Below the pieces are notes generated by a model that had not been told where the DNA came from, searched no databases, and saw only the letters and a program-made list of their open reading frames with translations. This document shows positions 9,612 through 37,361 of a stretch of DNA of 44,268 nt, in pieces (position 1 is the stretch's first letter; the number at the start of each line of letters is the position of its first letter). This DNA is from an uncultured Bacteroidales bacterium (lineage in GTDB: Bacteria > Bacteroidota > Bacteroidia > Bacteroidales > Muribaculaceae). The position numbers were made by a program, and so were the translations under genes. The DNA is taken from contig CADBNR010000066.1 in the NCBI GenBank assembly GCA_902796035.1, positions 1-44,268 of the forward strand, written 5' to 3'.

Positions 9612-10079
9612 ATGATAGACATAGACACGTTGCCGCCGTTGTCGGCGTTTCCGCACCGCATACCGGTGGAGATACGGTTCAACGACATAGACATCTTGGG
9701 ACATGTGAACAATACGGTGTATTTTTCGTTCTACGACACGGGCAAGGCGTGGTATTTCAAGGATATAGTCGACTGGGAGATAGACTGGCGCCAGGTGGAG
9801 ACGGTCATAGCCAACGTGGAGTGCACATACATGGAGCCGCTGATGTTCGGCGAGGACCTGGTGGTGGGCACACGCTGCGAGGCGATACACGACCGCAGCT
9901 TCCACATCCTTCAGGTCATAGCCGACGCGCGCACGGGCCGCATCAAGTCGGCGTGCCGTACGGTGATGGTGAGCTTCGACCCGGCCACGCAGAAGTCGGC
10001 GCCGATGCCCGACAGATGGCGCCGCGCCCTGGAACGCTCCATCGCCCTGAATCCGATTAACCCCGATGAATCCCGATAA
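9612..10079 (+). CDS. Acyl-CoA thioesterase, hotdog fold (4HBT family)
   Basis: 155 residues. The motif RFNDIDILGHVNNTVYFSFYD holds the Asp and the GHVNN helix start that define YbgC/FadM-type 4HBT thioesterases, which hydrolyse acyl-CoA thioesters. Later strands (VECTYMEPLMFGEDLVVGT, SFHILQVI, SACRTVMVSFDP) complete the fold. The last codons run into a 10-base tandem array: NPINPDESR is encoded by its first units, and the stop TAA lies inside it. The substrate is unknown. Confidence 0.88.
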   Translation: MIDIDTLPPLSAFPHRIPVEIRFNDIDILGHVNNTVYFSFYDTGKAWYFKDIVDWEIDWRQVETVIANVECTYMEPLMFGEDLVVGTRCEAIHDRSFHILQVIADARTGRIKSACRTVMVSFDPATQKSAPMPDRWRRALERSIALNPINPDESR

Positions 10080-10110
10080 ATCCCGATAAATCCCGATTAA
10101 TCCCGATAAA
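10051..10110 (+). repeat. Six-unit tandem array, period 10 (TCCCGATAAA)
   Basis: Six consecutive decamers, the last four being TCCCGATAAA, TCCCGATAAA, TCCCGATTAA and TCCCGATAAA. The array covers the last nine codons and stop of the thioesterase gene and continues into the spacer. Confidence 0.92.
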
Positions 10111-10125
10111 ATTGAATTAACCCTG

Positions 10126-10752
10126 ATGAATAGCATAAACGACATAATGCGCTCCATTCTGGAGCGGGAATCGCAGGCCATACTGAACATCCCCGTCACG
10201 GACGATTATGGCCGGGCGGTGGACCTTATAGTGGAGCATGTGAACCGCCGAGGCGGCAAGCTGATAAGCTCCGGCATGGGCAAAGCCGGCCAGATAGCGA
10301 TGAACATCGCCACCACTTTCTGCAGCACCGGCACTCCGGCCGTGTTCCTGCATCCCAGCGAGGCGCAGCACGGCGACCTCGGCATCATACAGCGCAACGA
10401 CCTGCTGCTGTTGCTGTCCAACTCCGGCAAGACCCGCGAGATAGTGGAACTCGTGCAGCTGGCGCGGGTGCTGAACCCCGAAATTCCGATAATTGTTATA
10501 ACTGGAAACCCCGAGTCGCAGCTCGGCACGCACGGCGACGTCACGCTGAGCACGGGCAACAGCCCCGAAGTATGCCCGTTAGGCCTGACACCCACCACTT
10601 CCACCACCATGATGACCGTGATGGGCGACGTGCTTGTGGTGGCTACAATGCAAAAGATAGGATTCACCAAGGAGGAATACGCCAAGCGTCATCACGGCGG
10701 TTATCTCGGCCACAAGTCCTCGGGTCAGTCCGGTAACCCTGAAATATGTTGA
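10126..10752 (+). CDS. SIS-domain sugar-phosphate isomerase, arabinose-5-phosphate isomerase-like
   Basis: 208 residues consisting of one SIS domain. The motifs are those of the KdsD/KpsF/GutQ family, which convert ribulose 5-phosphate to arabinose 5-phosphate for Kdo synthesis: SSGMGKAG, LHPSEAQHGDLGII, LLLLSNSGKTREI, and near the end GDVLVVATMQ followed by KRHHGGYLG. The usual C-terminal pair of CBS domains (giving about 320 residues) is absent. Single-domain enzymes of this sort are known from Bacteroides, so this is probably the natural short form and not a truncation. It would feed lipopolysaccharide core assembly. The next gene starts 4 bases after the stop. Confidence 0.88.
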   Translation: MNSINDIMRSILERESQAILNIPVTDDYGRAVDLIVEHVNRRGGKLISSGMGKAGQIAMNIATTFCSTGTPAVFLHPSEAQHGDLGIIQRNDLLLLLSNSGKTREIVELVQLARVLNPEIPIIVITGNPESQLGTHGDVTLSTGNSPEVCPLGLTPTTSTTMMTVMGDVLVVATMQKIGFTKEEYAKRHHGGYLGHKSSGQSGNPEIC

Positions 10753-10756
10753 GAAA

Positions 10757-11635
10757 ATGAGTCTTATGAAATACGCACCCCATTTCAAGGGGATGAAGAT
10801 GGATTCGGACGACGCCCGTATCCTGGAGACTGTGGTGAATCAGCGCAAGGAGGCTCTTGAACTGTTCGAGGCCGAGGAATACAACAAGGTTCTCGAGAAG
10901 ACAGTAGAGTCGCTAAAGGCCATGCGTGAATTTTCCGACTACGGCAGTATGGAATTCCGCGAGGCCGTGGTGGTGTTGCTGTTCGACCTGTCGGAGATAC
11001 ACTATGCCCTGAAGGACTACAAGCAGTCGAAGAAGGAACTGGAGCAGATCTTCAAGTTCCTGGAGCCGCTGCTTAAGCTCGACGCCGACCGCTTCGGCAA
11101 GTATCACGTCATGGCCATGGAGCTGTCCACACGCATACTGCGCAGCCGCAAGAAGATGCTTGACATGCTGGCCAAGCAGCAGATCCACACCGGTCTGCTC
11201 TACGACAAGGTGCACAACGGCGTGGCCACGGCCACCGACAAGCTTGTGGAGTCGCTGTGCAAGGATGCCGAGATGATGGCCTCTACGGGAGACTACAAGG
11301 GTGCCGTGAAGTTCTATATGGAAGCCATCAAGCTGTCGAAGAAGCGTGCCGGCCGTGTCACGCGCCGCGAGGTGGCCATGACCATCGAGGTGGCGCGTCT
11401 GTTGATGCGCAGCCGTGCGCAGACAGAGCGTGCCCGCCGTCTGCTCAACGCCGTGCTGCCGCATGCCGTGGCCCTTGAGATTGTGGAACTGGAGCAGGAG
11501 ATACTCGGCCTTCTTGACAATATCGAGATCAACGTGATCCACGACTCTGCATGGCGTCAGTTCATGGTCAAAATGCAGGCGGCCACCCGATTCCTGAAGA
11601 AGAATAGGGAGACCGCAGAGGAAGAGGGAGAATAG
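10757..11635 (+). CDS. Uncharacterised helical-repeat (TPR-like) protein
   Basis: 292 residues, no signal peptide or membrane segment. It is almost wholly helical, with repeats that look like TPR hairpins, for example EALELFEAEEYNKVLEKTVE, EIHYALKDYKQSKKELEQI and MASTGDYKGAVKFYMEAIKL. The C-terminal third is rich in basic and acidic residues and ends in ETAEEEGE. I do not recognise a named family. It starts 4 bases after the isomerase gene and is likely in the same transcript; its stop TAG is the first part of a nonamer repeat array. A scaffold role is plausible from the fold only. Confidence 0.75.
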   Translation: MSLMKYAPHFKGMKMDSDDARILETVVNQRKEALELFEAEEYNKVLEKTVESLKAMREFSDYGSMEFREAVVVLLFDLSEIHYALKDYKQSKKELEQIFKFLEPLLKLDADRFGKYHVMAMELSTRILRSRKKMLDMLAKQQIHTGLLYDKVHNGVATATDKLVESLCKDAEMMASTGDYKGAVKFYMEAIKLSKKRAGRVTRREVAMTIEVARLLMRSRAQTERARRLLNAVLPHAVALEIVELEQEILGLLDNIEINVIHDSAWRQFMVKMQAATRFLKKNRETAEEEGE

Positions 11636-11706
11636 TGGGAGAAGTGGGAGAAGTGGGAAGATTTCCCAATTATCCCAACCTTCCCAACCTTCCCAATACC
11701 CCCAAT
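11635..11706 (+). repeat. Nonamer arrays in inverted orientation (3 purine units, 5 pyrimidine units)
   Basis: Three 9-base units GTGGGAGAA, GTGGGAGAA, GTGGGAAGA (11635-11661) are followed without a gap by five 9-base units of the complementary type (CTTCCCAAC and variants, 11662-11706). The two halves can pair into a long imperfect hairpin directly after the stop of the helical-repeat gene. The same NTGGGANNA unit recurs at 28718-28762. Confidence 0.9.
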
Positions 11707-11729
11707 AATCAAATTAATAAAATTTAATT

Positions 11730-12311
11730 ATGACTGATACAGTATCACCGGGCAAATATGTAGAGTACTCATACACGCTTACCGACTCGTCGACGGGCCG
11801 CAAGCTGTTCGAGGCTACGAAAAACCGGCCGGACCAGATGGTATATGGCGTTAGCCAGGAGGTAGTCCCGGGCCTCGTTGGCGCCATGGAGGGTCTGAAG
11901 GCCGGCGACAGGTTCGAGGTGACGCTGCCCCCTGCAGCGGCATTCGGCGAACGTAACGAAGAGGATGTGGTGGAACTTGACCGCGCCATATTCGAGCGTG
12001 ACGGCAAGCTTGCCGAAGAAGTGAAGGTAGGCGCCGCACTCCCTATGATGACGGCCGAGGGATATCGTGTGATAGGCACCGTCGTGTCGATAGGACCTAA
12101 GGTGGTGATGGACTTCAATCATCCGTTCGCCGGGCTGACTGTCACGTTTGCCGGCGAGATAGAGACAGTGCGCGATGCCACCGAGGAAGAGATACACCCG
12201 GCCTCCGGTTGCGGGGGTTGCTGTCACGGCGGTGGCTGTGGCGGCGACGAAGGCTGCGGCAAGGAAGACGGGGGCTGTTGCGGCGGCAACGGCGGATGTG
12301 GAGGTTGCTGA
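11730..12311 (+). CDS. slyD: FKBP-type peptidyl-prolyl isomerase, SlyD type, with metal-binding tail
   Basis: 193 residues. SlyD speeds prolyl bond isomerisation in the cytoplasm and also binds nickel. The FKBP part shows VEYSYTLTDSSTG, the MVYGVSQEVVPGLVGAMEGLKAGD segment and TLPPAAAFGER, followed by the inserted chaperone (IF) region at about residues 75-120 and the closing strand DFNHPFAGLTVTF. After residue 155 the protein ends in a Gly/Cys tail with nine Cys and one His, the counterpart of the E. coli SlyD nickel-binding tail. Its stop abuts that of convergent ribH with no spacer. Confidence 0.93.
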   Translation: MTDTVSPGKYVEYSYTLTDSSTGRKLFEATKNRPDQMVYGVSQEVVPGLVGAMEGLKAGDRFEVTLPPAAAFGERNEEDVVELDRAIFERDGKLAEEVKVGAALPMMTAEGYRVIGTVVSIGPKVVMDFNHPFAGLTVTFAGEIETVRDATEEEIHPASGCGGCCHGGGCGGDEGCGKEDGGCCGGNGGCGGC

Positions 12312-12836
12312 TTACTGCCTGAACGAGGCGTAACGCAAGGCGCCGGAGTGGATGTGGAGATTGGCCATCTTGATGGCTGCCACAGCCGCTTCGGCGCCCT
12401 TGTTGCCTAAGCGGCCGCCTGCGCGGTCCAGAGCCTGCTGCATGTCGTTGACGGTCAGCACGCCGAATATCACCGGAGCCTCTCCGCGCGCGTTAAGCTC
12501 GGCGACGCCCTGGCTCACTACCTGACATACGTAGTCGAAATGCGGCGTGTCACCGCGCACCACGCAGCCCAGGATGATGATGGCGCTCAGGTCCTGCATG
12601 TGACGCAGAGCCATGCCGGCGGCGTTCACCAGCTCGACGGTGCCCGGCACAGGCTGGGAGAAGATGTTGTCGGGGTTGACGCCTGCCTTATGCAGAGTGT
12701 CCGTCACGCCTTTCAGCAACGCGTCCGTGACCTCGGGGTTCCATTCGGCGGTGAAGACCGCGCACTTGAAATTGGCGGCGTCCAGAAGTTGCGGCACTTC
12801 CAGTTCGGTGCCGTTCGTATTCAGGATAGTTGACAT
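12312..12836 (-). CDS. ribH: 6,7-dimethyl-8-ribityllumazine synthase
   Basis: 174 residues. RibH condenses the pyrimidine dione with 3,4-dihydroxy-2-butanone 4-phosphate to form lumazine, the step before riboflavin. Family segments are AEWNPEVTDALLKG, VPGTVELVNAA, GCVVRGDTPHFDYVC with the active-site His, FGVLTVNDMQQALDRAG and GNKGAEAA. The gene lies directly behind the DUF4919 gene, one base after its stop, so it is probably the last gene of the minus-strand unit that begins at rel. Confidence 0.96.
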   Translation of the reverse strand: MSTILNTNGTELEVPQLLDAANFKCAVFTAEWNPEVTDALLKGVTDTLHKAGVNPDNIFSQPVPGTVELVNAAGMALRHMQDLSAIIILGCVVRGDTPHFDYVCQVVSQGVAELNARGEAPVIFGVLTVNDMQQALDRAGGRLGNKGAEAAVAAIKMANLHIHSGALRYASFRQ

Positions 12837-12837
12837 A

Positions 12838-13572
12838 TTATTCCGGATGTTTCAGTTCATACTGGTTTTGGGGAATCTGTACGTCGAAGTAGAATCCCCG
12901 GGCCGATTTGTCGCGTTTGCGCTTGTCGGAGGGGTCGGGACGCACGGACAGATAGTCGTAGCCCGGTTCGATGAAGTCGGCGTTGGTGGCCTCGTAGCCC
13001 AACAGCTGCACCATGTCGTATTCGTGCATGGGGTATATCACATACCAGGCGTTCTCTATGTCCTCGCCCGTTCCGGTGCTCTTGATGGCGCCTAACAGAT
13101 GCTCCAGGCGGTATTCCCATATCTTGGCGCGCATGTCCTTGCGGCGTTCCTTCAGCACATGCACCAGGAACGACATCTGGCGCAGATCGAATGGATTGTC
13201 GGCCAGTGCCAGTTGCGCGTATTTGGTGATGGTGTCTATCTCGGCGCGGGTGTGCGTGGGCTTGCTGCGCAGGCTGTCCGTGCGGTCGGAGTAGGGCGAC
13301 ATGCGGTATGGGTCGTAGTCCTCCTGAAACATATATCCTAAGTAGAGGTGCCGGAACTCGTCGTTGGTCATCGTGGTGTCGTTCACCTCGTATTTGGACA
13401 TGAGTTTCGGGAAGTAATATTTGCTCTCGGGGTCGAGGGTCGACGTACGTATCTCCTCGAGGTCCGGTTTCTCCACCACTATCTTACGTGATTTGGCGGC
13501 GTTCTGGGCGGTGACGCCGACAGCGCCTGCGGCCATTATGGAGAGTATGAGTATGTTTCTGAATATTTTCAT
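12838..13572 (-). CDS. Exported DUF4919-family protein
   Basis: 244 residues. The start is the ATG at 13572, giving a clean signal peptide (MKIFRNILILSIMAAGAVGV, cleavage near TAQ). No lipobox Cys is present, so it should be periplasmic. The body (PESKYYFPKLMSKYEV, MTNDEFRHLYLGYMFQEDYDPY, NPFDLRQMSFLVHVL, ENAWYVIYPMHEYDMVQLLG and FYFDVQIPQNQYELK) fits the Bacteroidales family DUF4919, of unknown function. An upstream extension of the same frame to 13932 is only the shadow of the membrane-protein gene. Confidence 0.85.
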   Translation of the reverse strand: MKIFRNILILSIMAAGAVGVTAQNAAKSRKIVVEKPDLEEIRTSTLDPESKYYFPKLMSKYEVNDTTMTNDEFRHLYLGYMFQEDYDPYRMSPYSDRTDSLRSKPTHTRAEIDTITKYAQLALADNPFDLRQMSFLVHVLKERRKDMRAKIWEYRLEHLLGAIKSTGTGEDIENAWYVIYPMHEYDMVQLLGYEATNADFIEPGYDYLSVRPDPSDKRKRDKSARGFYFDVQIPQNQYELKHPE

Positions 13573-13577
13573 GTATT

Positions 13578-14105: not shown

Positions 14106-14128
14106 TTTCGGGTTATCTGGGTTATTAT

Positions 14129-14171
14129 AGCTAAGATAGCTAAGATAGCTAAGATAGCTAAGGCAGCTATA
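14129..14171 (-). repeat. Nonamer array TAGCTAAGA-type
   Basis: Three exact copies of AGCTAAGAT and one of AGCTAAGGC (14129-14164), then AGCTATA, period 9. The array lies just downstream of the PgpH-like stop on that gene's strand. The same TAGCTANNN unit makes up the array after mfd at 37290-37361. Confidence 0.92.
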
Positions 14172-16290
14172 CTGTTATAACGTAGTTTCGGCGGTTTTTA
14201 GTTCGCGGCGGCTGATTTTGTGCCGGCTCTCCCTGTTGTTTGATTTCAGGGTAAGCCACGCGGCCGTGGTACATGGTCTGCAGTCGCTTCTTGAACGCGG
14301 CCTTGATGTCCTCCACGTCCTTGAACGAGATGGGGGAGTCGCGGAACATTCCGTCGCGCACCTGGCCGTCTATTATCTTGTCCACCAGACCGTCGATGGC
14401 CTCGGTGGAATAATCCGTCAGGCTTCGCGAGGCCGCCTCCACAGAGTCCGCCATCATAAGTATGGCCGTCTCCTTGCTGCGCGGATTCGGACCGGGATAC
14501 ATGAATGGCTTCCTGTCTATCGGATGGTCGGGGTCGGGATTGTTGTTCACGGCGGTGTTATAGAAATATTTGGTCAGGCTCTTGCCGTGGTGTTCGGGTA
14601 TGAACTGACGCACCATTTCGGGTAGTTTCTCCTTCTGGGCCAGTTCAAGGCCCTTGGTGACGTGCGAGATTATCTTCTGCGCGCTCACCTCGGGGTCGAG
14701 TCCGTCGTGCGGGTTGACGTTATGCTGGTTTTCGGTGAAGAACAGGGGGTTGTAGAGCTTGCCGATGTCGTGATACAGCGCACCGGTACGCACCAGCTGT
14801 GTGTTGGCCCCGATGGCCCGCGCCCCCTCGGCGGCGAGCATGGACACCTGCATGGAATGTTGGAAAGTGCCCGGAGCCTCCTGGGCAAGGCGCCGCAACA
14901 GCGGACTGTTGATGTCCGACAGCTCCACGAGCGTGACGGTGGAGGTGAAGCCGAACAGTTTCTCGATCACGAGCACCAGGATATACACGAAGCTGAGCAC
15001 CACGGCGTTGATGGCGAATATTCCAATAAGTCTCCATTCGTAGCCGACGAGCGTGCCGTTGTCGAGCAGCAGCAGTGTGGTGTAGGCCAGCACGTAAGCC
15101 ACGAACGAAAGGGCCGCTGTATTCAGCAGCTGTCCGCGGCGGCTCAGGGTGCGCATGGATAAGGCAGCCGTCAGGCCTGCCGCGAGTTCAAGGAAGATGA
15201 ACTGCAAGGGCTCGATGGCCACGATGCTCGAGATCATCACCGTAACCAGCAGCGAGAAAATGGCCGTGCGCGAGTCGAAGAACACTAAGATCACCACCGG
15301 CACGGCGGCGAAGGGCACCAGATAGATGCCGTTGCGGAAATACTCGAACATCAGGATGGCGAACACCACGAACAACGTGATGAACGTCATGAGGAACAGC
15401 ATCTTGCGCAACGACGAGAAGAACCTCTCGCGGTATTCGGCCAGGAAGATGTACAGGCCTGCGAAGCATATCAGTATGAACAGCGCCTGACCCACATAAA
15501 AGTATGTGTCGGTATTGTCCTCGCCATGGTTCTCGGCCACCTTCTGCAGATATGTGTTGAGGTTGGTGAATATCTGCGGGGTCACGATCTCGCCCCGGTC
15601 CACGATGCGCTGGCCCTTCTTGATCACACCAATCGACGCGTCGGCGGTAAGGTACTCCTGTTTGCGGAATTTCTGGTCGGCGGCGGTGTCGAGCACCACG
15701 TTGGGCACAAGGATTGCATTGAGCGATGAAGCGATCTCGTCGTTGTGCTGCTCAATGACCGGTGCGCCCGACACGCGGTAGGCCGAGTCGATGAACTCGA
15801 ATGCCATGACCGGCGACATCATCTCGTTGCAGTCAATGGTTATCAGTGCGTCGGCGCCGTTGATCTTGCTGGCGATGCGGGCCTCGTGTCCGGGAGCCGC
15901 CTGTATGCGGTCGTACACCTTGGAATCGAGCACGCCGCGTGCGTATATCTCGTTCAGCAACTTGCCGAGCACAAGGCGCGACACGTCGGGCGTCTTGCCG
16001 GTGATGGCCTTGTTGAACATCTGTATGCGCCGGTCGGCCCGGTCGTCCTGGCGCTTGATGATGGGCAGGAAATTACGGTCGATGCTGTCGCGCATACGCT
16101 GGGCGGACTCCGCGTCGCGCTTCACCTCCATGTCGAAGTCCGCCATGAGCAGCGGGTACCGCCATGGCTGGTTCTCTTCGTATACATAGTCCTGCACGTC
16201 GTTGTGGGGCAGCAACAGCATTATCACGGCCGTGGCCCCGACAAGCATGAGCAGTTTCAGGAAAAAGTCTCTTTTCTTTCTGTTCATCAC
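14167..16290 (-). CDS. PgpH-like 7TM-HD phosphodiesterase (probable c-di-AMP hydrolase)
   Basis: 707 residues in the classic layout: one N-terminal membrane helix (about 11-28), a large extracytoplasmic 7TMR-HDED domain (about 30-270), seven membrane helices (about 275-460), and a cytoplasmic HD domain. The HD domain carries GTFQHSMQV, YHDIGK (H507, D508), FIPEHHG and the MMADSVEAASRS helix. Listeria PgpH with this layout cleaves the second messenger c-di-AMP. The Gly/Gln-rich tail after residue 680 is likely disordered. The gene starts 47 bases after rel and is likely co-transcribed with it. I give no symbol because the activity is not proven for this protein. Confidence 0.9.
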   Translation of the reverse strand: MMNRKKRDFFLKLLMLVGATAVIMLLLPHNDVQDYVYEENQPWRYPLLMADFDMEVKRDAESAQRMRDSIDRNFLPIIKRQDDRADRRIQMFNKAITGKTPDVSRLVLGKLLNEIYARGVLDSKVYDRIQAAPGHEARIASKINGADALITIDCNEMMSPVMAFEFIDSAYRVSGAPVIEQHNDEIASSLNAILVPNVVLDTAADQKFRKQEYLTADASIGVIKKGQRIVDRGEIVTPQIFTNLNTYLQKVAENHGEDNTDTYFYVGQALFILICFAGLYIFLAEYRERFFSSLRKMLFLMTFITLFVVFAILMFEYFRNGIYLVPFAAVPVVILVFFDSRTAIFSLLVTVMISSIVAIEPLQFIFLELAAGLTAALSMRTLSRRGQLLNTAALSFVAYVLAYTTLLLLDNGTLVGYEWRLIGIFAINAVVLSFVYILVLVIEKLFGFTSTVTLVELSDINSPLLRRLAQEAPGTFQHSMQVSMLAAEGARAIGANTQLVRTGALYHDIGKLYNPLFFTENQHNVNPHDGLDPEVSAQKIISHVTKGLELAQKEKLPEMVRQFIPEHHGKSLTKYFYNTAVNNNPDPDHPIDRKPFMYPGPNPRSKETAILMMADSVEAASRSLTDYSTEAIDGLVDKIIDGQVRDGMFRDSPISFKDVEDIKAAFKKRLQTMYHGRVAYPEIKQQGEPAQNQPPRTKNRRNYVITV

Positions 16291-16337
16291 TGAACTTTTT
16301 AGTCTATTAAAACATAGTCAGCCGGCCCGGGTGGGGG

Positions 16338-18964: not shown

Positions 18965-19028
18965 CGCGCATTATGCATGATATGCATAGCGAATAGCATC
19001 GCGCATTATGCATTGTGCATTAATTATG
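18965..19028. repeat. Heptamer array, GCGCATT/ATGCATT type
   Basis: Nine 7-base units from 18966: GCGCATT, ATGCATG, ATATGCA, TAGCGAA, TAGCATC, GCGCATT, ATGCATT, GTGCATT, AATTATG. The 14-base word CGCGCATTATGCAT occurs exactly twice, 35 bases (five heptads) apart. The complementary unit type (AATGCGC, AATGCGT) forms the array after mltD at 23749-23797. Confidence 0.85.
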
Positions 19029-19139: not shown

Positions 19140-19194
19140 ATAAATGTCAACAATGGATAGAACTGCGGTATATGGCTGTATATGCTGTGTATGG

Positions 19195-19286
19195 TCGGAG
19201 ACCATGTTTCTCGTTAACCCCACGAAGGCTTCCGGACGCTTCGCGCCCTCCGCCATCGTGGGGTTAATGAGAAACAGCCTCTCCGA
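19195..19286. repeat. 92-base inverted-repeat element with 31-base arms
   Basis: Arm 19195-19225 and arm 19256-19286 are reverse complements apart from four positions, around a 30-base centre. The outer ends are also small hairpins with a GGA/TCC loop: TGGTC-GGA-GACCA (19192-19204) on the left and CCTC-TCC-GAGG (19278-19288) on the right. Confidence 0.88.
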
Positions 19287-19292
19287 GGTGTT

Positions 19293-19369
19293 TCGGATTG
19301 GGGTATTCGGGTTAGTGTATTCGGATTGGGGTTTTGGGATTGGGGTTTCGGGGTAGCGTTACGGGTTTA
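19293..19369 (+). repeat. G-rich heptamer array upstream of parA, containing a G-quadruplex motif
   Basis: Read in sevens from 19293 the spacer is TCGGATT, GGGGTAT, TCGGGTT, AGTGTAT, TCGGATT, GGGGTTT, TGGGATT, GGGGTTT, CGGGGTA and two weaker units. Within it 19328-19353 has four G tracts (4, 3, 4, 4) with loops of 4, 3 and 4 bases, a canonical intramolecular G-quadruplex motif on the plus strand. Confidence 0.8.
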
Positions 19370-22086: not shown

Positions 22087-23745
22087 ATGAGCAGAAAGTC
22101 AATCATACTTATGGCCGCGTTGCTGGGCGTCATGCCGTCGATGGCGCAGAAGAACCGCAACGTCAACAGCCTTCGCACCGAGATAACCGACTCGCATATA
22201 GTGTATCCCAAGAGCTACGAGGCCGACACGCAGCGTATGCTGGAGGGCTGGTACATGCAGAATTACACCGCCACCGACGACAGCTATCGCCGCAAGGGGG
22301 ACGTGGAGGTGAGCGACGCCGTGTTGCGCGACCGCCTGTCGAAGCTGCCCACGGTAATCGATATGCCATATAACTCGATAGTGCGCAGCTATATAGAACG
22401 TTACACCCGCCGCGGACGCGACCAGGTGGCCGCTCTGTTGGGTCTGTCATTATATTATATGCCCATCTTCGAGCAGGCACTTGAGGCCGAGGGACTGCCC
22501 CTTGAGCTGAAATACCTGCCCGTGATAGAGTCCGCGCTGGACCCTAACGCCACCAGCAAGCACGGCGCCGCCGGCCTGTGGCAGTTCATGGTCGGTACCG
22601 GCAAAGGCCTCGGTCTGGAGGTGAACAGCATGGTGGACGAACGCCGCGACCCCTACAAGTCGTCGGAAAAGGCCGCCAGATACCTCAAGGATCTGTACAA
22701 CAGCTACGGCGACTGGTCGCTGGCCATCGCCGCCTACAACTGCGGTCCCGGTGCCGTAAACAAGGCGCTGCGCCGCGCCGGGGGTACGCCCGACACCCAT
22801 GATTACTGGTCCATTTACTATTATCTCAGCCCCGAGACGCGCGGATACGTACCCATGTTCATCGCCGCGAACTATGTGATGAATTATTACGACAAGCACA
22901 ACATCGGCCCGGTGTTGCCCACCAAGCCCTTGGTGATGGACACCGTGCATGTGGCCGAGCGCATACATTTCGACCAGATCTCGCACGTGCTCGACATCCC
23001 GGTGGAGGAGCTGCGTGTGCTGAACCCTCAGTTCCGCGCCGACATCATTCCGGGCAACAACGAGCGCAGCTACACGCTGATACTTCCGTCGCGCCAGGTG
23101 CAGGCATACCTGATGAGCGAGGAGGAGATACGCAATTATAACGCCGACACGTACGCCCGTCGCGTCGTGGCCGAACCCGGTTCGGAGCCCGACGCCCAGC
23201 TTGCCGCCATCATAGCGCAGGAGGATGCCGAGGAACTGGCCAACGAGGAGCATGACCAGGCCAAGGACCTGCCGGCACCGCGCAAGACCGAGGAGGTGGC
23301 CGTGACACGCGACCGTCGCGGATCGCAGCAACAGCATCTCGACACCGGCGACACCGATGCGCAGGCCGATGCCGCAAGCGACTACCGTGCCGCACGCCAG
23401 TCGGCACGCCGTCAGTCCAGGAGCACCTACGAGGCTCCGGCCACGCAGAGCAGGCAGACCGCGGCCAAGAGTGGCAAGACAACCGCCAAAAAGAAGAAAA
23501 CGCAGCCTGCGGCTCCCCAATCGCATACCGTCAAGAGCGGCGACAATCTGTCAAACATAGCCAAGAAGTACGGCACCACCGTGGCGGCCCTGAAGAAGGC
23601 CAACGGCATAACCGGCAGCGGCGACGCACTGCAACCCGGCGACAAGCTGAAACTGCCGGGCAAGAGCACTGTCTCCAAATCCGAGAGCAAAAACAAATCA
23701 AAAGGTACGTCCTCAAAATCAAGGAAAAAGAAGAGACGGCGTTGA
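22087..23745 (+). CDS. MltD-like lytic transglycosylase with one LysM domain
   Basis: 552 residues. A signal peptide (to about SMAQ, residue 21) is followed by the SLT catalytic domain: ELKYLPVIESALDPNATSKHGAAGLWQFM, with catalytic Glu in VIES, and later LAIAAYNCGPGAVNKALRR. These enzymes cleave the glycan strands of peptidoglycan to leave 1,6-anhydro ends. A long low-complexity linker rich in Ala, Gln, Arg and Lys (about 370-490) leads to one LysM module (HTVKSGDNLSNIAKKYGTT ... LQPGDKLKLP). The protein ends in a Lys/Ser/Arg tail. It is the last gene of the parA unit, and a heptamer array begins one base after its stop. Confidence 0.93.
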   Translation: MSRKSIILMAALLGVMPSMAQKNRNVNSLRTEITDSHIVYPKSYEADTQRMLEGWYMQNYTATDDSYRRKGDVEVSDAVLRDRLSKLPTVIDMPYNSIVRSYIERYTRRGRDQVAALLGLSLYYMPIFEQALEAEGLPLELKYLPVIESALDPNATSKHGAAGLWQFMVGTGKGLGLEVNSMVDERRDPYKSSEKAARYLKDLYNSYGDWSLAIAAYNCGPGAVNKALRRAGGTPDTHDYWSIYYYLSPETRGYVPMFIAANYVMNYYDKHNIGPVLPTKPLVMDTVHVAERIHFDQISHVLDIPVEELRVLNPQFRADIIPGNNERSYTLILPSRQVQAYLMSEEEIRNYNADTYARRVVAEPGSEPDAQLAAIIAQEDAEELANEEHDQAKDLPAPRKTEEVAVTRDRRGSQQQHLDTGDTDAQADAASDYRAARQSARRQSRSTYEAPATQSRQTAAKSGKTTAKKKKTQPAAPQSHTVKSGDNLSNIAKKYGTTVAALKKANGITGSGDALQPGDKLKLPGKSTVSKSESKNKSKGTSSKSRKKKRRR

Positions 23746-23746: not shown

Positions 23747-23813
23747 ATAATGCGCAATGCGTAATGCGAAACGCATAATGCGTAATGTCGCGATGCAATT
23801 CAATGCGGAATGG
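23747..23813. repeat. Heptamer array, AATGCGT type, after mltD
   Basis: Seven-base units from 23749: AATGCGC, AATGCGT, AATGCGA, AACGCAT, AATGCGT, AATGTCG, CGATGCA, then decaying copies. The unit is the reverse complement of the array at 18966-19028 (for example GCATAATGCG here, CGCATTATGC there). The two arrays therefore flank the parA-mltD block in opposite orientation. Confidence 0.88.
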
Positions 23814-27488: not shown

Positions 27489-28067
27489 ATGAATTTCAAC
27501 GAAGACGATAATAACGATTATTTCGACCAGGAATACGTTCCGGAGGAACCGAAGCCTGTGAAGGAGCCGAAGCGTCCGGCCCTGAAGCCGGAGGATCCGG
27601 CCTATTGGGACGAGCCGGAGTCAGAGTTCGACCACCTGAAGCAGACATCCCGCTCATGGAAGGTGTGGATGTGGGTGGCCGTCGCCGGTGTGGTGATGGG
27701 TCTGGTCATTGCCGGATGGCTTGTCTATTTCAATCCGTATGTCGAGAATGCCGTGACTTACGGATATGTGGAGAGTATAGAGAAACGAGGCACCGCCATC
27801 AAGACATACGAGGGCGTGTTGCTGCCGTATAAGAATCTGATGGACACCACGCGGGTGTACGACAAGGACTTCGTTTTCTCTACGGTCAACGATACGGTCG
27901 CCGTCACATTGCGCCGCATGCAGTACAAAAACCGGCCTGTGCGAGTGGAATACGAGGTTTATCATGCAGCCGTGCCCTGGCGAGGCGACACCAGGTATAT
28001 AGTGGTGCGGGTTGATTCGGTCGATCCGCGGACAATCCTGCCGCCCGACCGCCAACCTGAGCTATGA
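27489..28067 (+). CDS. Uncharacterised single-pass membrane protein
   Basis: 192 residues. The cytoplasmic N-terminus (about 1-55) is very acidic and Pro-rich (NEDDNNDYFDQEYVPEEPKP). One membrane helix follows (VWMWVAVAGVVMGLVIAGWL, about 57-78). The remaining 110 residues should be periplasmic and contain YGYVESIEKRGTAIKTYEGVLLPYK and FSTVNDTVAVTLRRMQ, which look like a small beta domain. I do not recognise a named family. It overlaps the LRR gene by 4 bases (ATGA), so the pair is translationally coupled. Confidence 0.78.
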   Translation: MNFNEDDNNDYFDQEYVPEEPKPVKEPKRPALKPEDPAYWDEPESEFDHLKQTSRSWKVWMWVAVAGVVMGLVIAGWLVYFNPYVENAVTYGYVESIEKRGTAIKTYEGVLLPYKNLMDTTRVYDKDFVFSTVNDTVAVTLRRMQYKNRPVRVEYEVYHAAVPWRGDTRYIVVRVDSVDPRTILPPDRQPEL

Positions 28068-28717
28068 GAAGATTGTTGATACTTATGGCCGCGGTTGTGT
28101 CCGCGGTGCAGGTCTGGGCCGACACTGTGCGCGACTCGGTGCTGACGGTCACGGATCCGTTGGCCGAGCTGAAATATGCCGAACGCGCTGACTTCCATAC
28201 GGTGGTGTTCAAGTCGCGCCCGACCGTGATACCGGCATACGCCTTCCGCGAATGTCCTAATCTGCGCGAGGTGCGTCTGCCCGAAAGCGTGAGCGACATC
28301 AAGTCGCAGGCATTCGTGTATTGCCGCTCGCTGCGGAGCATCAATCTGCCGGAGGGTATGACGCACATCGGCGCGAACGTGTTCTCGTTCTGCACGTCGC
28401 TTCGCGAGGTGAAGCTGCCGGCGCGCTTGAAGGAGCTGGAAAGCTATGCTTTCAGCGAATGCACGTCGTTGCGTCGCGTCACGATGCCGGCCAACGCCAA
28501 TCTGTTGGGCGAGATGCTGTTTGCCGGCTGCTACGCGCTGACCGAGCTGATAGAGCCGTCGCCTGTGCCTCCGCCGTTCGACTGCAACTCGCAGCCCTTC
28601 GACCCCGAGGAACGCGGCTTGTTGCGCACGTGTACGCTGCGGGTACCGGCCGAGGCGTTGCCGGCTTACAGGCAGGCCCGCGCCTGGGGGGAGTTTGACA
28701 GGATTGAGCCGATGTGA
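28064..28717 (+). CDS. Exported BspA-type leucine-rich repeat protein
   Basis: 217 residues with a signal peptide (MRRLLILMAAVVSAVQVWA). Residues about 50-150 are four LRR_5 (BspA/Treponema type) repeats of about 23 residues: IPAYAFRECPNLREVRLPES, KSQAFVYCRSLRSINLPEGM, GANVFSFCTSLREVKLPARL and ESYAFSECTSLRRVTMPANA. The C-terminus ends with a CTLRVPAEALPAYRQARAW segment common in this family. Such proteins are often surface or periplasmic binding proteins; no anchor is visible. A purine-rich nonamer array begins directly after the stop. Confidence 0.9.
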   Translation: MRRLLILMAAVVSAVQVWADTVRDSVLTVTDPLAELKYAERADFHTVVFKSRPTVIPAYAFRECPNLREVRLPESVSDIKSQAFVYCRSLRSINLPEGMTHIGANVFSFCTSLREVKLPARLKELESYAFSECTSLRRVTMPANANLLGEMLFAGCYALTELIEPSPVPPPFDCNSQPFDPEERGLLRTCTLRVPAEALPAYRQARAWGEFDRIEPM

Positions 28718-28762
28718 GTGGGAGGACTGGGAGAAGTGGGAAGAATGGGAAGAGTGGGAGAG
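28718..28762 (+). repeat. Purine-rich nonamer array NTGGGANNA
   Basis: Five 9-base units, GTGGGAGGA, CTGGGAGAA, GTGGGAAGA, ATGGGAAGA, GTGGGAGAG, start at the base after the LRR gene's stop codon. The plus strand is nearly all purine. The unit is the same as at 11635-11661. Confidence 0.92.
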
Positions 28763-30533: not shown

Positions 30534-30552
30534 ATTCACCGTTAAGATAACA

Positions 30553-30598: not shown

Positions 30599-30607
30599 AA
30601 TATGACC

Positions 30608-30626: not shown

Positions 30627-30652
30627 AAGTCTGATACCATAGCGATATAGTT

Positions 30653-32218: not shown

Positions 32219-32265
32219 CCCCGATTCAGGATAATACATAAGGACCACCGATTGTTATATAAAAT

Positions 32266-33924
32266 ATGAAAAGGATTATCAGAGGCGCATTGTTGTGTGC
32301 CGCCATCGTGACGGCCGGAATAGTGAGTGCGCAGAAAAGTAAGGACATGTCGGTGGCCCGCGGCCTGAACACGTTCAGCTCCATAGTCAAGGAGCTGGAA
32401 ATGAACTATGTGGACACTATCAATTCGGAGACGGCGTTCAAGGACGCCATCGACGCGATGCTGCAGACGGTGGACCCGTATACCGTGTATTATCCCAAGG
32501 AGGACCGCGAGGACATAAGCCAGATGACCACCGGCGAATATGCCGGCATCGGCGCCCTGCTGCTGTATAAGGACGGCGGCACATACGTGTCCGAGCCGTT
32601 CGAGAACAGCCCGGCGTACAAGGGAGGCCTCCGCGCCGGCGACCGATTGCTGAAGGTGGACACCGTCGATGTGTCGAAGTTCACCGTCGACAAGGTCAGC
32701 AAGCTGCTGCGCGGCCGCCCCGACACGCAGGTACGCATCCGCGTGCAGCGCCCATACGTCAAGGATTCCATACTAAACTTTACCGTCACCCGCGCCAAGA
32801 TACGCAATTCGTCGGTGCCTTACGCCGGCGTGCTGCCCGACAGCATCGGCTATATACGCATCACGCAGTTTATCGAGGACACCGGCAAGGATGTCCGCTC
32901 AGCCCTCGACTCGTTCCATGCCGAGGCTCCCGGCCTTAAAGGAGTGATAATCGACCTGCGCGGCAACGGCGGCGGTCTGCTGGAGCAGGCCGTGGACGTG
33001 GCCTCCAACTTCGTGCCAAAGGGCACCGAGATAGTGCGAACCATCGGCCGGGACAAGGACGCCACCAAAATCTACAAGACCATGCGCAAGCCCCTGTATC
33101 CCGATATGCCCGTGGCCGTGCTGACCGATGGCGGCACCGCATCGGCCTCCGAGATATTGGCCGGCGCCATGCAGGATCTGGACCGCGGCGTCTTAGTTGG
33201 TACGCGCAGCTTCGGCAAGGGACTGGTGCAGACCACGCGTCCCCTCCCTTACGGCGGTGTGCTGAAGGTGACGGTAGCCAAATACTACACCCCTTCGGGC
33301 CGGTTGATACAGAGCCTGGACTATAAGCACCGCAATCCCGACGGATCGGCGGCACGCGTGCCCGACTCTCTGACCCACGCCTACAAGACGCTGCACGGCC
33401 GCACCATACGCGACGGCGGCGGTCTGCAGCCCGATTCCACGGTGAACTGGAAGAAGGTGAACCGCCTGGTCTACAATGTGGTGAGCGACAACTGGTCGTG
33501 GGACTTCGCCAATAAGTTCAAGGCCACGCATCCCACCATCCCGGGCGCCGACAAGTTCGTGATCACCGACTCGTTGTACAACGAATTCAAGGCATTCATC
33601 GACCCGAAGAAGTTCAAATACGACTCCGCGATGGAGGAGGCCACCGAGGCGCTGCGCAAGGTGGCCGACGAGGAGGGATATATCAACGACGAGACCACGG
33701 CAGCCTTCGACAGCCTCAAGAAACTGCTGACGCACAACCTTGACCGCGACCTCGACACCCACCGCAAGCACATAGAGGAATACCTCGGCGGCGAGATAGT
33801 GAGCCGCTACTACTTCGACCGCGGGCGAACGCAGTACGGCATCCGCGACGACGAGGGCGTGGACGCCGCACGCGGCATCATCAAGGACAAGACGCTGTAT
33901 AAACGAATACTTTCGGGCAAATGA
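32266..33924 (+). CDS. C-terminal processing peptidase, S41 family
   Basis: 552 residues with a signal peptide (to about VSAQ, residue 22), so periplasmic. A PDZ domain (about 85-170, with GLRAGDRLLKVDTVDV) precedes the peptidase core: GYIRITQF, GVIIDLRGNGGG, VLTDGGTASASEI and GTRSFGKGLVQ. Ser293 and Lys318 are 25 residues apart, the spacing of the catalytic dyad in E. coli Prc. A C-terminal helical extension follows about residue 370. These enzymes trim the C-termini of exported proteins. The stop overlaps mfd by 4 bases (ATGA), an unexpected pairing of a protease with a repair factor. Confidence 0.94.
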   Translation: MKRIIRGALLCAAIVTAGIVSAQKSKDMSVARGLNTFSSIVKELEMNYVDTINSETAFKDAIDAMLQTVDPYTVYYPKEDREDISQMTTGEYAGIGALLLYKDGGTYVSEPFENSPAYKGGLRAGDRLLKVDTVDVSKFTVDKVSKLLRGRPDTQVRIRVQRPYVKDSILNFTVTRAKIRNSSVPYAGVLPDSIGYIRITQFIEDTGKDVRSALDSFHAEAPGLKGVIIDLRGNGGGLLEQAVDVASNFVPKGTEIVRTIGRDKDATKIYKTMRKPLYPDMPVAVLTDGGTASASEILAGAMQDLDRGVLVGTRSFGKGLVQTTRPLPYGGVLKVTVAKYYTPSGRLIQSLDYKHRNPDGSAARVPDSLTHAYKTLHGRTIRDGGGLQPDSTVNWKKVNRLVYNVVSDNWSWDFANKFKATHPTIPGADKFVITDSLYNEFKAFIDPKKFKYDSAMEEATEALRKVADEEGYINDETTAAFDSLKKLLTHNLDRDLDTHRKHIEEYLGGEIVSRYYFDRGRTQYGIRDDEGVDAARGIIKDKTLYKRILSGK

Positions 33925-36900
33925 CGCTGACGGAATGCGCGTCACTGTTCGTGACTGACTCCAAGCGTCGTGGCACCGCGCGGATGCTGAAGGACCGTGG
34001 CCTGAGACGTCTGATGTTCGCGGGGCTGACGGGGAGCGCACCGGCGGTGTTCCTCAGCACCCTCGATGTGCCGCTGGGCGTGGTGGTATGCAACGACCTG
34101 ACAGGCGCCGGCTATATGTTCAGCGACCTGACCGCCATACTCGGCCCCGACGCCGTGGCCATATTCCCCAGCGGCTACAAGCGCGACATCAAGTACGGCC
34201 AGCCCGACGGCCCGCAGCAGATACTCCGCACCGAGACGCTGGACCGCCTGCATGCCCCCAAAAGCAGTCTGACGTGGATCGTTACCTATCCCGAGGCTCT
34301 GGCAGAACGGGTGGCCGCTCCCGAGGCCATGGCGCGCGACACGCTCCGCTTCCATCCCGGCGACACGGTCAGGATCTCCGAACTTCTGCAACGTCTGCTC
34401 GACATGGGCTTCCACAAGGTGGACTATGTCTACGAACCGGGGCAATTCGCCGTCCGGGGCTCCATTTTCGACATATTCAGCTACAGCCGCGACATGCCCT
34501 ATCGCTTCGATTTCTTCGACGAGGACATTGACACCATACGCACGTTCAACATCGAGACGCAGCTGTCGGAGGGGAAGGAGGACGAGGCCGTGATACTGTC
34601 CGCCCGCGCTTCGGACGCCACAGGCGGCGTGTCGCTGCTCGACACGCTCGACGATGACACATTGCTGTTCTGTGCTGATCCCGACTTCATCACTGCGCGC
34701 GTGGCGTCAGTAGCCTCGCAGACCTATTCCGATTCAGCCGTCATAGCAGGCGAGGGAGACCCCGACTCGATGCAGAAGGTGGTGGATCCCGATGAGTTCC
34801 GCGCCCGCTTCGAGACGATGCGCGTGGCGCAGTTCACCCCCAACCGCGAGGCAGGCGAGAACATCGCCGGACTGGCGCGGATGGTGTTCGACACCGCGCC
34901 GCAGACGCTATATCATAAGAATTTCGATCTCATAGCCGATTCATTCGCCGACTTCCTGGCCAAGGGATACCGCATAATGGTGCTGAGCGACTCGGCGCGT
35001 CAGACCGACCGCCTGAAGGAGATATTCGAGGACCGTGGCGACGACATCGTCTTCACTCCCGTGGAACCGACGCTGCACGAGGGCTTCATCGACCGCGGGT
35101 CGAAAAGCTGTTTCTTCACCGACCATCAGATATTCGACCGGTTCCACAACTACACGCTGAAGGCCGACCGCGCCCGCAGCGGCCGCGTGGCGCTCAGCCT
35201 CAAGGAACTGAACCAGATAGAGCCGGGCGACTACATAGTGCACATAGACCACGGCATCGGCATATTCGGCGGCCTGGTCAAGACGGCGACAAACGGCCAT
35301 CCGCAGGAGATGATAAAGGTGTTCTTCCAGAACAACGACTTGGTGCTTGTATCAATCCACGCCCTGCACAAGCTGTCGAAATACCGTGGTCAGGAGGGCG
35401 CCGCGCCCAAGGTGAGCAAACTCGGCTCCGGGGCATGGCAGCGGCTTAAGGAGCGCACCAAGTCCAAGATGAAGGACATGGCGCGCGACCTGATACGCCT
35501 GTACGCCCGGCGCCGCCACGAAAAAGGTCACGCATTCCCCGCCGACAACTATCTGCAGCATGAATTGGAGGCATCGTTCGCATACGAGGACACGCCCGAC
35601 CAGCAGAAGGCCACGGCGGCCGTCAAGGCCGACATGGAGTCGCCGCGTCCCATGGACCGACTGGTGTGCGGCGACGTTGGTTTCGGCAAGACGGAGATAG
35701 CCGTGCGCGCCGCATTCAAGGCCGCCTGCGACAACAAGCAGACCGCGCTGTTGGTGCCCACCACCGTGCTGGCCATGCAGCATTACCACACGTTCCGCGA
35801 CCGTCTCAAGGATTTCCCGGTGCGCGTAGAGTTCCTGAGCCGCGCCAAGAAAGCGGCCGAGACCCGACAGATACTCGCCGACCTCAAGGCCGGCAAAATC
35901 GACATACTGATAGGCACGCACAAGATTATCGGCAAGCAGGTGGAGTTCAAGGACCTGGGTCTGCTGGTGATAGACGAGGAGCAGAAGTTCGGCGTGGCGG
36001 TCAAGGAAAAGCTGAAGCAGCTCAAGACCAACGTCGACACGCTGACCATGTCGGCCACGCCGATACCGCGTACGCTGCAGTTCTCGCTGATGGGGGCGCG
36101 CGACCTGTCGAACCTCAATACGCCACCGGCCAACCGACAGCCCATCAACACGACGGTGTCCGTGCTGGACGACGATACCCTCAAGGAAGCCGTCAGCTTC
36201 GAGCTGAGCCGCGGCGGACAGGTGTTCTTTGTCACCAATCGGATTCAGAATCTTTTCGAGCTACAGACCAAATTAGAGCGCCTGGTGCCGGGCGTACGCG
36301 TGGTGATAGCCCACGGCCAGATGCCGCCCGAGCAGATGGAGAAGGCCATCATAGACTTCTCCAACCGTGACTACGATGTGCTTCTGTCCACCACCATCAT
36401 CGAGAACGGCGTGGACATGCCCAACGTCAACACCATCCTTGTCAACAACGCGCACCGTTTCGGCCTTAGCGAGCTGCACCAGCTTCGCGGCCGCGTGGGG
36501 CGTTCGTCGCGCAAGGCGTTCTGCTATCTGTTCGTGCCTCCGGGCGACGCCATGACCCCTGTGGCGCGTCGCAGGCTGCAGGCCATCGAGTCATTCTCCG
36601 AGCTTGGCAGCGGCATACACATAGCCATGCAGGACCTGGACATACGCGGCGCGGGCAACCTGCTCGGAGCCGAACAGTCGGGCTTCATAGCCGACCTGGG
36701 ATACGAGGCGTATCAGCAGATACTGCGCGAGTCGGTGACGGAGCTGAAGACGGAGGAATTCGGCGACGAGTTCCAGGATGTGTCCGATGCCGCGACGGGT
36801 CAGGAGGAGTATGTGAACGAGGTGACGATAGAGAGCGACCTGGAATTGCGTCTGCCGCCTGAGTATGTGCCGCAGGAGAACGAGCGCATCACGCTGTACA

Positions 36901-37274
36901 GGCAGCTTGACAACATGGAACGGCCTGAGCAGGTCGAGGAATTCCGCGCAGAGCTGCGCGACCGTTTCGGCGCGATACCGGATGTTAGCGAGGAGCTGAT
37001 CAAGGTGGTGCCGCTTCGGTTCGAGGCAAAGAAGGCGGGCATAGAGCGTCTGGTGCTGAAGAACGGCCAGATGCGCGCATACTTCGTCGGAGCGGAGAAC
37101 AAGGCGTATTATCAGAGCCGGGCATTCGGCCGGATTCTGGAGTGGTTGGCCAGCAATCCGCGTGATGTCAATTTCCGCAAGGCCGGCGAGCGCAACCTGC
37201 TGGTGTTCTCGGGCATAGCGACCGTTTCGGACGCCCTGGGCGTCCTCGCTGCAATCACCGCCCCGCTGCAATAG
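33921..37274 (+). CDS. mfd: Transcription-repair coupling factor Mfd
   Basis: 1117 residues, full length. Mfd removes stalled RNA polymerase from DNA damage and recruits UvrA. The N-terminal UvrB-like part contains DKVDYVYEPGQFAVRG-like sequence near residue 170. The polymerase-interacting domain includes DYIVHIDHGIGIFGGL (about 437-452). The RecG-like motor carries CGDVGFGKTE (Walker A, about 581-590), LLVIDEEQKFGV (about 683) and TMSATPIPRTLQFSLMGARD. The C-terminal TRCF domain starts near 960. The ATG lies inside the stop of the S41 protease gene. Confidence 0.97.
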   Translation: MTLTECASLFVTDSKRRGTARMLKDRGLRRLMFAGLTGSAPAVFLSTLDVPLGVVVCNDLTGAGYMFSDLTAILGPDAVAIFPSGYKRDIKYGQPDGPQQILRTETLDRLHAPKSSLTWIVTYPEALAERVAAPEAMARDTLRFHPGDTVRISELLQRLLDMGFHKVDYVYEPGQFAVRGSIFDIFSYSRDMPYRFDFFDEDIDTIRTFNIETQLSEGKEDEAVILSARASDATGGVSLLDTLDDDTLLFCADPDFITARVASVASQTYSDSAVIAGEGDPDSMQKVVDPDEFRARFETMRVAQFTPNREAGENIAGLARMVFDTAPQTLYHKNFDLIADSFADFLAKGYRIMVLSDSARQTDRLKEIFEDRGDDIVFTPVEPTLHEGFIDRGSKSCFFTDHQIFDRFHNYTLKADRARSGRVALSLKELNQIEPGDYIVHIDHGIGIFGGLVKTATNGHPQEMIKVFFQNNDLVLVSIHALHKLSKYRGQEGAAPKVSKLGSGAWQRLKERTKSKMKDMARDLIRLYARRRHEKGHAFPADNYLQHELEASFAYEDTPDQQKATAAVKADMESPRPMDRLVCGDVGFGKTEIAVRAAFKAACDNKQTALLVPTTVLAMQHYHTFRDRLKDFPVRVEFLSRAKKAAETRQILADLKAGKIDILIGTHKIIGKQVEFKDLGLLVIDEEQKFGVAVKEKLKQLKTNVDTLTMSATPIPRTLQFSLMGARDLSNLNTPPANRQPINTTVSVLDDDTLKEAVSFELSRGGQVFFVTNRIQNLFELQTKLERLVPGVRVVIAHGQMPPEQMEKAIIDFSNRDYDVLLSTTIIENGVDMPNVNTILVNNAHRFGLSELHQLRGRVGRSSRKAFCYLFVPPGDAMTPVARRRLQAIESFSELGSGIHIAMQDLDIRGAGNLLGAEQSGFIADLGYEAYQQILRESVTELKTEEFGDEFQDVSDAATGQEEYVNEVTIESDLELRLPPEYVPQENERITLYRQLDNMERPEQVEEFRAELRDRFGAIPDVSEELIKVVPLRFEAKKAGIERLVLKNGQMRAYFVGAENKAYYQSRAFGRILEWLASNPRDVNFRKAGERNLLVFSGIATVSDALGVLAAITAPLQ

Positions 37275-37289
37275 CAGCGTCGGATATTA

Positions 37290-37361
37290 TAGCTACTATA
37301 GCTAAGGTAGCTATTTTAGCTATTATAGCTATTATAGCTACGATAGCGATCTTAGCTAAAA
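37290..37361. repeat. Eight-unit nonamer array TAGCTANNN after mfd
   Basis: Eight consecutive 9-base units: TAGCTACTA, TAGCTAAGG, TAGCTATTT, TAGCTATTA, TAGCTATTA, TAGCTACGA, TAGCGATCT, TAGCTAAAA. The first six bases are fixed and palindromic while the last three vary. The array starts 15 bases after the mfd stop and runs into the terminator. Confidence 0.95.

Follow-up and report, generated by a model that had tools for sequence, protein, structure and literature searches.

Short tandem arrays in the spacers between bacterial genes have long been noted, with their role left open in the available portions of earlier papers. The heptamer arrays of Xanthomonas and Nostoc (GGGAATC and GGGGA(C/T)T) overlap or approach stop codons (Rehm et al. 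2015; PMC4692102, available part), an excess of heptamers is known (Mrazek 2007, as cited in the available part of PMC4679880), and TAACTGA repeats occur in Beggiatoaceae, some cyanobacteria, and Bacteroidetes (PMC4679880, same part). In the repetitive extragenic palindrome (REP)/REP-associated tyrosine transposase (RAYT) systems, dispersed extragenic repeats, often palindromic, lie mainly downstream of genes or between codirectional or convergent open reading frames (ORFs) (PMC3733652, available part). Here we examine eight short tandem arrays in a 44,268-nucleotide stretch of DNA from an uncultured Bacteroidales bacterium of the Muribaculaceae (contig CADBNR010000066.1; the whole stretch is called the window below). 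Several of the period-9 and period-10 arrays carry words that also occur beside genes for four-helix-bundle proteins, and these genes are themselves usually flanked by arrays.

The arrays agree with what has been called long simple sequence repeats or heptamer arrays in being tandem, intergenic, built of units within the range of 5 to 11 bases, and more frequent than chance allows. Like the Xanthomonas and Nostoc heptamers they are intergenic, near stop codons, rare between divergent genes, and variable among close relatives; those, however, are of one G-rich heptamer type with no partner gene reported in the available part of PMC4692102, whereas several 8- to 10-base words with partner genes are found here. 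The TAACTGA repeats are likewise intergenic tandem heptamers with a patchy species distribution but consist of one word, which in the main species usually stands immediately before start codons (PMC4679880, available part), and four-helix-bundle terms are absent from the available text of that paper. The BrickBuilt miniature inverted-repeat transposable element (MITE) of Porphyromonas gingivalis is also a Bacteroidales intergenic tandem repeat, with inverted ends and many copies, but has a 23-base unit, and its abstract names no partner gene (PMC4596501, available part). With the REP/RAYT systems the arrays share the dispersed extragenic placement described above, the presence of several repeat families in some genomes, and a partner gene flanked by its own repeat (PMC3733652, available part), and for TAGCTANNN and GATTAATCNN both the flanked partner and dispersed copies were found. 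They differ in having 8- to 10-base tandem words in place of 20- to 40-base palindromes with a GTAG or CGTC tag, and a four-helix-bundle partner in place of a Y1 transposase, of which there was no sign in five partner proteins scanned. In the open-access literature searched, no title or abstract start among the matches listed describes a four-helix-bundle gene with tandem arrays, which points to a pairing not previously described there; one match containing the search words (PMC5524665) was unrelated by content, as far as its available part goes.

The window makes up contig C66 of the source genome, which is 92% complete at 2.2 Mb in 76 contigs. The mfd product encoded there shares 96% identity with that of "Porphyromonadaceae bacterium UBA3318" and 62 to 73% with those of many genomes labeled Muribaculaceae, Porphyromonadaceae, or Bacteroidales. 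Genome G077, in which matches to the window are mostly 89 to 96% identical with some weaker stretches, was used as the sister species and G106 as the outgroup. Arrays were detected with Tandem Repeats Finder (TRF) and a self-match scan. A sequence-only reading of the window had reported eight arrays; both methods recovered all of those with period 9 or 10 and the period-7 array at 23749 where they had been placed, and two of the three period-7 arrays (18966-19028 and 19293-19369) proved weak. The arrays exceed chance: at a scan score of at least 14, intergenic arrays of period 7 to 11 numbered 24 in the first 365 kb, the part covered by the shuffled-spacer control, compared with 0.3 per shuffled set. 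In a larger sample of 708,720 bases (the window and 40 further stretches), a scan at score 12 returned 64 intergenic rows, including periods 7 (18 rows), 8 (3), 9 (23), and 10 (11). Eight of the 64 lack a spacer bounded by called genes at either end and were left out of the position counts.

The recurrent words common to the period-9 and period-10 arrays are TAGCTANNN, GATTAATCNN, and TGGGANNNN. The earlier claim that unit families recur at distant loci held for period 9 (37 similar pairs, compared with a maximum of 19 in column-permuted controls) and period 10 (10 pairs, compared with 4) but not for period 7 (18 pairs, compared with 19). Recurrence of words beyond chance argues for an active process, as had been proposed alongside a possible shared function at mRNA 3' ends, and that process can now be linked to a protein family. 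Three tandem units of TAGCTANNN with one mismatch were present in 19 of 149 family genomes and 8 of 30 genera (backward control, five matches in 2 genomes), and three units of GATTAATCNN with up to three mismatches in 18 of 149 genomes and 7 of 30 genera (backward control, 0); exact triple TAGCTANNN was found in 5 of 25 genus genomes and in 0 of 16 genomes of other families. No single set of periods characterizes the family: G212, whose stretches were selected for GATTAATC, has mainly periods 10 and 11 and the sister mainly 9 and 10, which indicates that the period follows the words present. Copying of arrays as blocks together with their flanks was also considered and rejected for TGGGA, as the 12 matches listed, out of 26, were one locus on both strands or pairs between the source genome and its sister.

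Flank matches of TAGCTA arrays were instead traced to a partner gene. Comparison of the flanks of TAGCTANNN loci showed that in three genus members (L003 in the source genome, L129 in G023, and L133 in G001) an array immediately precedes the same gene. The product is a four-helix-bundle protein with a TIGR02436 domain and a TIGR04258 suffix domain. The three TAGCTA-type proteins score 28 to 31 and 70 to 73 bits against these two models and pass both cutoffs (24 and 40); the GATTAATC-type protein of L192 scores 24.8 and 40.9, and that of L182 scores 22.4, just below 24, and 49.8. The five partner proteins scanned match TIGR02436, TIGR04258, and PF05635, the last under its gathering score, and two also match Zn_ribbon_Top1; the other partner proteins were assigned by profile A1 alone. 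The 23S rRNA intervening-sequence protein S23 and Avd, the accessory protein of diversity-generating retroelements, are four-helix-bundle relatives, and S23 genes sit within inverted-repeat inserts. The partner genes at L003, L129, and L133 differ from S23 genes in their setting, which is not a 23S rRNA insert (no tRNA or Rfam match at these loci), and no reverse transcriptase was found among seven neighbors scanned at three loci.

A profile search of the initial loci returned six partner genes, each with a word array: TAGCTANNN at three, GATTAATCNN at two, and a period-8 TGACAAAT-like word at one, the last beside a short, weaker match. Most of these loci had been chosen for their arrays, so a wider search of the family was needed, and it detected the partner protein in 89 of 149 genomes. 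We examined 69 distinct matches, one of them a weak remnant in the source genome, made up of 30 returned loci and 39 fetched from further down the list among entries without counted stops; further matches exist beyond these. With L206, L219, and L264 dropped for short flanks, 66 remained.

Partner genes and arrays are associated. An array of period 7 to 10 lies at an end of 57 of the 66 genes and at both ends of 24, compared with 53 and 1 of 453 control genes, which a simple ORF finder called in 20 genus loci and at mfd in other genomes; leaving out the three seed loci gives 54 of 63. The setting for starts differed between control and partner genes, so that downstream ends are the cleaner test, and these carry an array in 40 of 66 partner genes and 32 of 453 controls. 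The Fisher P value for flanking (5e-36) counts one gene twice and ignores kinship, and the size of the gap is what counts. Within the same loci, arrays lie at 81 of 132 partner-gene ends and at 3 of 31 far ends of neighbor genes. The TAGCTANNN partner of the source genome (C26:3451-4014) has arrays upstream, downstream, and after the next gene. Outside the Muribaculaceae, a search of a plasmid collection gave one match, annotated as "four helix bundle suffix domain-containing protein," on a 568-kb Prevotella nigrescens replicon, with an array of CCTAGGNNN about 40 bases past the partner stop. In the 300 kb of this replicon that were covered, CCTAGGNNN arrays also stand at two convergent gene ends and as one degenerate copy, and a set of 23 control palindromes, each with four G or C, produced a single array altogether. 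A search for phage carriage of the source genome's partner protein gave no match.

The arrays match their genes in period and in word. When the best array of each gene is taken, all 41 genes that lack a zinc ribbon show period 9 and all 16 zinc-ribbon genes show period 8 or 10. Zinc ribbons were called by cysteine pattern, and a Zn_ribbon_Top1 match confirmed the call in two proteins. The words flanking one gene have a mean similarity of 0.68, compared with 0.47 in swapped pairs, and 3 of 23 pairs are unlike. For period 9, word similarity rises with protein identity (rho 0.37, 0 of 2,000 permutations). Word and protein also co-occur across genomes: with seeds excluded, the TAGCTA subfamily (cut at 270 bits) is accompanied by its word in all 5 of its genomes, against a background of 18 of 148, and the GATTAATC subfamily (cut at 250 bits) in 6 of 9, against 16 of 147.

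These words recur in a share of the dispersed arrays. In the source genome, 13 of 28 period-9 and period-10 arrays match a partner-gene word at the 0.05 level, with 1.4 expected, and in the sister 8 of 26 do. Four of the 13 are in the window. The array at 37285 has the word of the source genome's own four-helix-bundle gene, which is also that of L210 (0 of 100 column permutations as good), and the one at 14110 shares its word with the same gene and with L212 (3 of 100). For 10053 the best match is the word next to the L207 partner gene (0 of 100), and 11621 matches that of the L248 partner gene (2 of 100).

We consider it fairly probable that, in the window, arrays with period 9 or 10 are copies of repeat words dispersed in a REP/RAYT-like manner, and that words of this kind have four-helix-bundle partner genes in the Muribaculaceae. 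We lean, at slightly better than even confidence, toward the broader proposal of a Bacteroidales class of selfish elements, each consisting of a suffix protein and its own word, in which the protein subtype fixes the period, the protein reads the word, word and protein diverge jointly, and one genome may contain several pairs competing for the same gene ends. The partner protein would recognize and bind its word along the array, and a protein oligomer would set the spacing of 8, 9, or 10 bases. Binding may promote copying of the word into other spacers and growth there, and copies would persist mainly where they are harmless, in the space from a stop codon to the promoter or terminator that follows. 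Such an element would be largely selfish, acting as REP repeats and RAYT transposases do. Old copies would drift, expand by slippage, or be overwritten by another word, and sister species would as a result differ at the same gene end.

Several observations weigh against this proposal. In the five partner proteins scanned no catalytic or transposase domain was found, and no sequence-related solved structure was recognized (none at E 0.01 and two chance-level matches at E up to 10). Nine of the 66 partner genes have no array at the cutoff, and the genes share descent, so that the P values overstate independence. Two zinc-ribbon-free genes bear an additional array, weaker than the first and of period 8 or 7. 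The period-9 trend is uneven across identity classes, no link between identity and word was seen for period 10 (rho 0.03, 10 genes), and for period 8 P was 0.055. Three of the nine GATTAATC-subfamily genomes (G004, G228, and G237) do not have the word, and gene damage gives no clear explanation, since the counted stop in two of them precedes the open frame; three of the nine also have TAGCTA arrays. There are orphan words as well: G007 has 62 GATTAATC matches and no partner match, and the source genome has two partner matches only, neither beside TGGGA, GATTAATC, or CCTTAAGG. The TGGGA core of the array at 28716 is, by eye, the word of the four-helix-bundle loci L243, L248, and L249, but its profile match to partner words falls short of significance, with 20 of 100 permutations matching equally well. 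Finally, period-7 arrays and the RAGTTNANA repeats described below have no partner and are outside the explanation; none was found for the three period-7 arrays of the window.

The eight window arrays are listed in Table 1 with what occupies the same place in the sister.

Table 1. Tandem arrays of the window, with their gene context and the corresponding place in the sister species.
Position	Strand	Array	Detection	Gene context	Same place in sister
10053..10110	+	Period 10, GATTAATCNN word family	TRF; scan score 38	Spans end of ORF 9612-10079 (labeled thioesterase in the sequence-only reading), precedes next gene	Period-9 TCCCA-type array
11621..11724	+	Period 9, TGGGANNNN units, then inverted TCCCANNNN units	TRF; scan score 39	Begins at stop of ORF 10757-11635	Same family, longer, assembly gap inside
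14110..14169	-	Period 9, TAGCTANNN	TRF; scan score 33	3' end of PgpH-like HD gene (14167-16290, minus)	GATTACTCT in place of TAGCTANNN
18966..19028		Weak period-7 stretch, GCGCATT/ATGCATT	Below scan cutoff; TRF gives only 19003-19022, score 33		GGATATT/AATATCC
19291..19369		Period 7/14, T+G rich	TRF period 14, score 74; scan score 11 at period 7	Adjoins dispersed inverted-repeat element	
23749..23787	+	Period 7, AATGCGN	TRF; scan score 18	Starts 3 bases past stop of mltD-like gene (22087-23745)	AATNNGN heptamers
28716..28759	+	Period 9, TGGGANNNN	TRF; scan score 21	Begins inside stop codon of leucine-rich repeat gene (28064-28717)	Same family, more units
37285..37356	+	Period 9, TAGCTANNN	TRF; scan score 35	Between mfd stop and terminator-like hairpin	AACAGGAGA hairpin array between mfd stop and same hairpin

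The array read earlier as a single run at 11635-11706 is real but is composed of two inverted half-arrays, TGGGA units followed by TCCCA units. In the sister, an N assembly gap lies within the TGGGANNNN array at L156:7760-8410, and array lengths in draft genomes may be underestimates. The stretch at 19293-19369 is best described as a 14-base pattern of two 7-mers.

Turnover was followed in 56 arrays of the source genome. The sister stretches contain both flanks of 17 of them, namely 15 with period 7, 9, or 10 and two rows with periods 11 and 12. Reading of the alignments showed the same family at the same place for eight of the 15, some with a changed copy number. Four are replaced by a different array (those at 10053, 14129, 23749, and 37290, of which 23749 keeps the AAT phase), one (L042:11291) is contracted, and two (L017:5482 and L038:3599) are absent or degenerate. 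The stretch at 18966 is a further replacement, seen from the sister side, and at seven places compared the outgroup has no array of period 7 to 10. One gene end can bear different words in sister species.

Six of the eight window arrays do start inside a stop codon or no more than about 15 bases from one, as the sequence-only reading had claimed, and the link to stops that it drew holds in the source genome, is weak in the sister, and is not seen in four other sets. An array of period 7, 9, or 10 in a tandem spacer was counted as stop-anchored if it begins between -20 and +12 of the stop. In the source genome this applies to 23 of 32 arrays, compared with 12.2 under random placement, and in spacers of at least 120 bp to 8 of 13, with 1.5 expected; 6 of the 32 are near starts. 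The sister has 11 of 24 stop-anchored, compared with 7.6 (P 0.07), and 7 of 16 in long spacers, compared with 3.0 (P 0.02). No link to stops was seen in 20 genus loci (2 of 9), in the mfd loci of other Muribaculaceae (6 of 13, compared with 5.0), or in the GATTAATC-selected stretches of G123 (1 of 5) and G212 (1 of 17). Since it is present in the source genome and absent from these four sets, the link looks like a feature of this lineage and not of the words. The count is partly raised by arrays that contain the stop, as at the PgpH gene: the stop used there is in the first unit of the array, but the PgpH frame of the sister ends 43 bases before its array. By eye, the source PgpH frame appears shifted by one base near its end relative to the sister (14167-14220, minus) and ends at the first TAG of the array. 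Tandem stops as a fail-safe were considered and set aside; sense-strand stops are denser in 33 stop-anchored arrays (0.122 compared with 0.056 per base), but many of these include the native stop. Nor is a link between arrays and stops undescribed, as had been suggested, since heptamer arrays near or overlapping stops in Xanthomonas and Nostoc are already published (PMC4692102, available part).

A regulon is the alternative that fares best, although we regard it as unlikely. The four-helix-bundle protein would be a nucleic acid-binding regulator, the arrays in 3' spacers its targets, the arrays at its own gene a means of autoregulation, and the spread of the words a result of selection. Several arrays are located between a stop and a terminator-like hairpin, and are on that account probably in transcribed DNA. 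Word cores are conserved and spacers variable, with identities of 0.78 to 1.00 and 0.40 to 0.51 in TAGCTANNN arrays picked for perfect cores in three units each. Folding is better for arrays in convergent spacers (mean z -5.5, n = 11) than for other convergent spacers (-2.2, n = 68; P 0.002), but arrays in tandem spacers fold no better than others (P 0.52), and a regulon sits poorly with the quick turnover and word replacement between sister species and with orphan words that have no protein. The selfish-element proposal fits orphan words and fast turnover better. A common RNA hairpin for all arrays was rejected: 20 of 74 exceed column permutations in self-complementarity at the 0.1 level, where about 7 are expected, and many arrays, those of TGGGANNNN and AGTGAAT among them, scarcely fold. 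Context-dependent folding, with arrays unfolded within operons and folded at transcription ends, was suggestive but not significant (P 0.08), and a search for known Rfam RNAs gave tRNA alone in the four sources scanned.

Plain slippage, in which the polymerase makes 7- to 10-base repeats in spacers and selection excludes them from genes and promoters, seems to us quite improbable as a general account. Copy number does vary at conserved loci such as 28718, and the period-7 arrays have no significant vocabulary and agree with the known excess of heptamers. Slippage leaves unexplained why words are shared across loci and genera, why one gene family is flanked, and why words match on two sides and periods match subtypes. 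It is disfavored for periods 9 and 10 and is the best account for period 7, and the three period-7 arrays of the window fit best as ordinary slippage repeats. That partner genes merely lie in repeat-rich, poorly conserved islands is very improbable: the source genome is array rich (76 of 518 genes are flanked by an array on at least one side), but the far ends of neighbor genes seldom have one, words usually match on both sides, and the period goes with the protein subtype.

Other repeats were noted during the survey. Period-9 RAGTTNANA elements occur at L013, L025, L038, L041, L044, L162, L164, L167, L169, L170, L171, and L179, often as four units followed, after some 40 bases, by an inverted AACTT half; they have in common an inner stretch resembling AAGATAAATGT (by eye). 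One copy (L162:8933-9041, in G077) is absent from the source genome and, by eye, has inverted ends and a possible TATA duplication, the features looked for in a MITE. The RAGTTNANA elements look like a MITE family, with no partner protein found, and may be nearer to the BrickBuilt kind. The dispersed inverted-repeat element at 19165-19290 in the window may be invertible or MITE-like; over 25 places in G077 and over 10 in G106 match its part at 19217-19288, often as inverted pairs. A GTATATGGCT-like array beside it has about three units in the window and is a period-10 array of about 120 to 130 bases at two sister contig ends. A period-8 TTGACAAN-like word stands at an mfd end (L054) and beside partner genes (L054, L120, L218, L220, and L231 are listed) and is likely another word-protein pair. 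In the source genome, the frame at L269:612-1142 (minus) joins, by eye, a four-helix-bundle start to a helix-turn-helix-like region, and an array of TTATAACTC ends 8 bases before this chimeric remnant. We also noted a long minisatellite-like array in a convergent spacer (L019:3213-3387), a 137-base G+C-rich array of GGCAGGC-like units (L035:4186-4322), and a perfect 31-base sequence in almost two tandem copies at 38707-38766 of the window.

The pairing of word, period, and protein subtype names a protein to purify and a sequence to offer it, which makes the question of what these arrays do a testable one. The pairing would also give a role to a protein family that is annotated but unexplained, and it offers a natural set of proteins and words for working out how helical bundles could read DNA or RNA.

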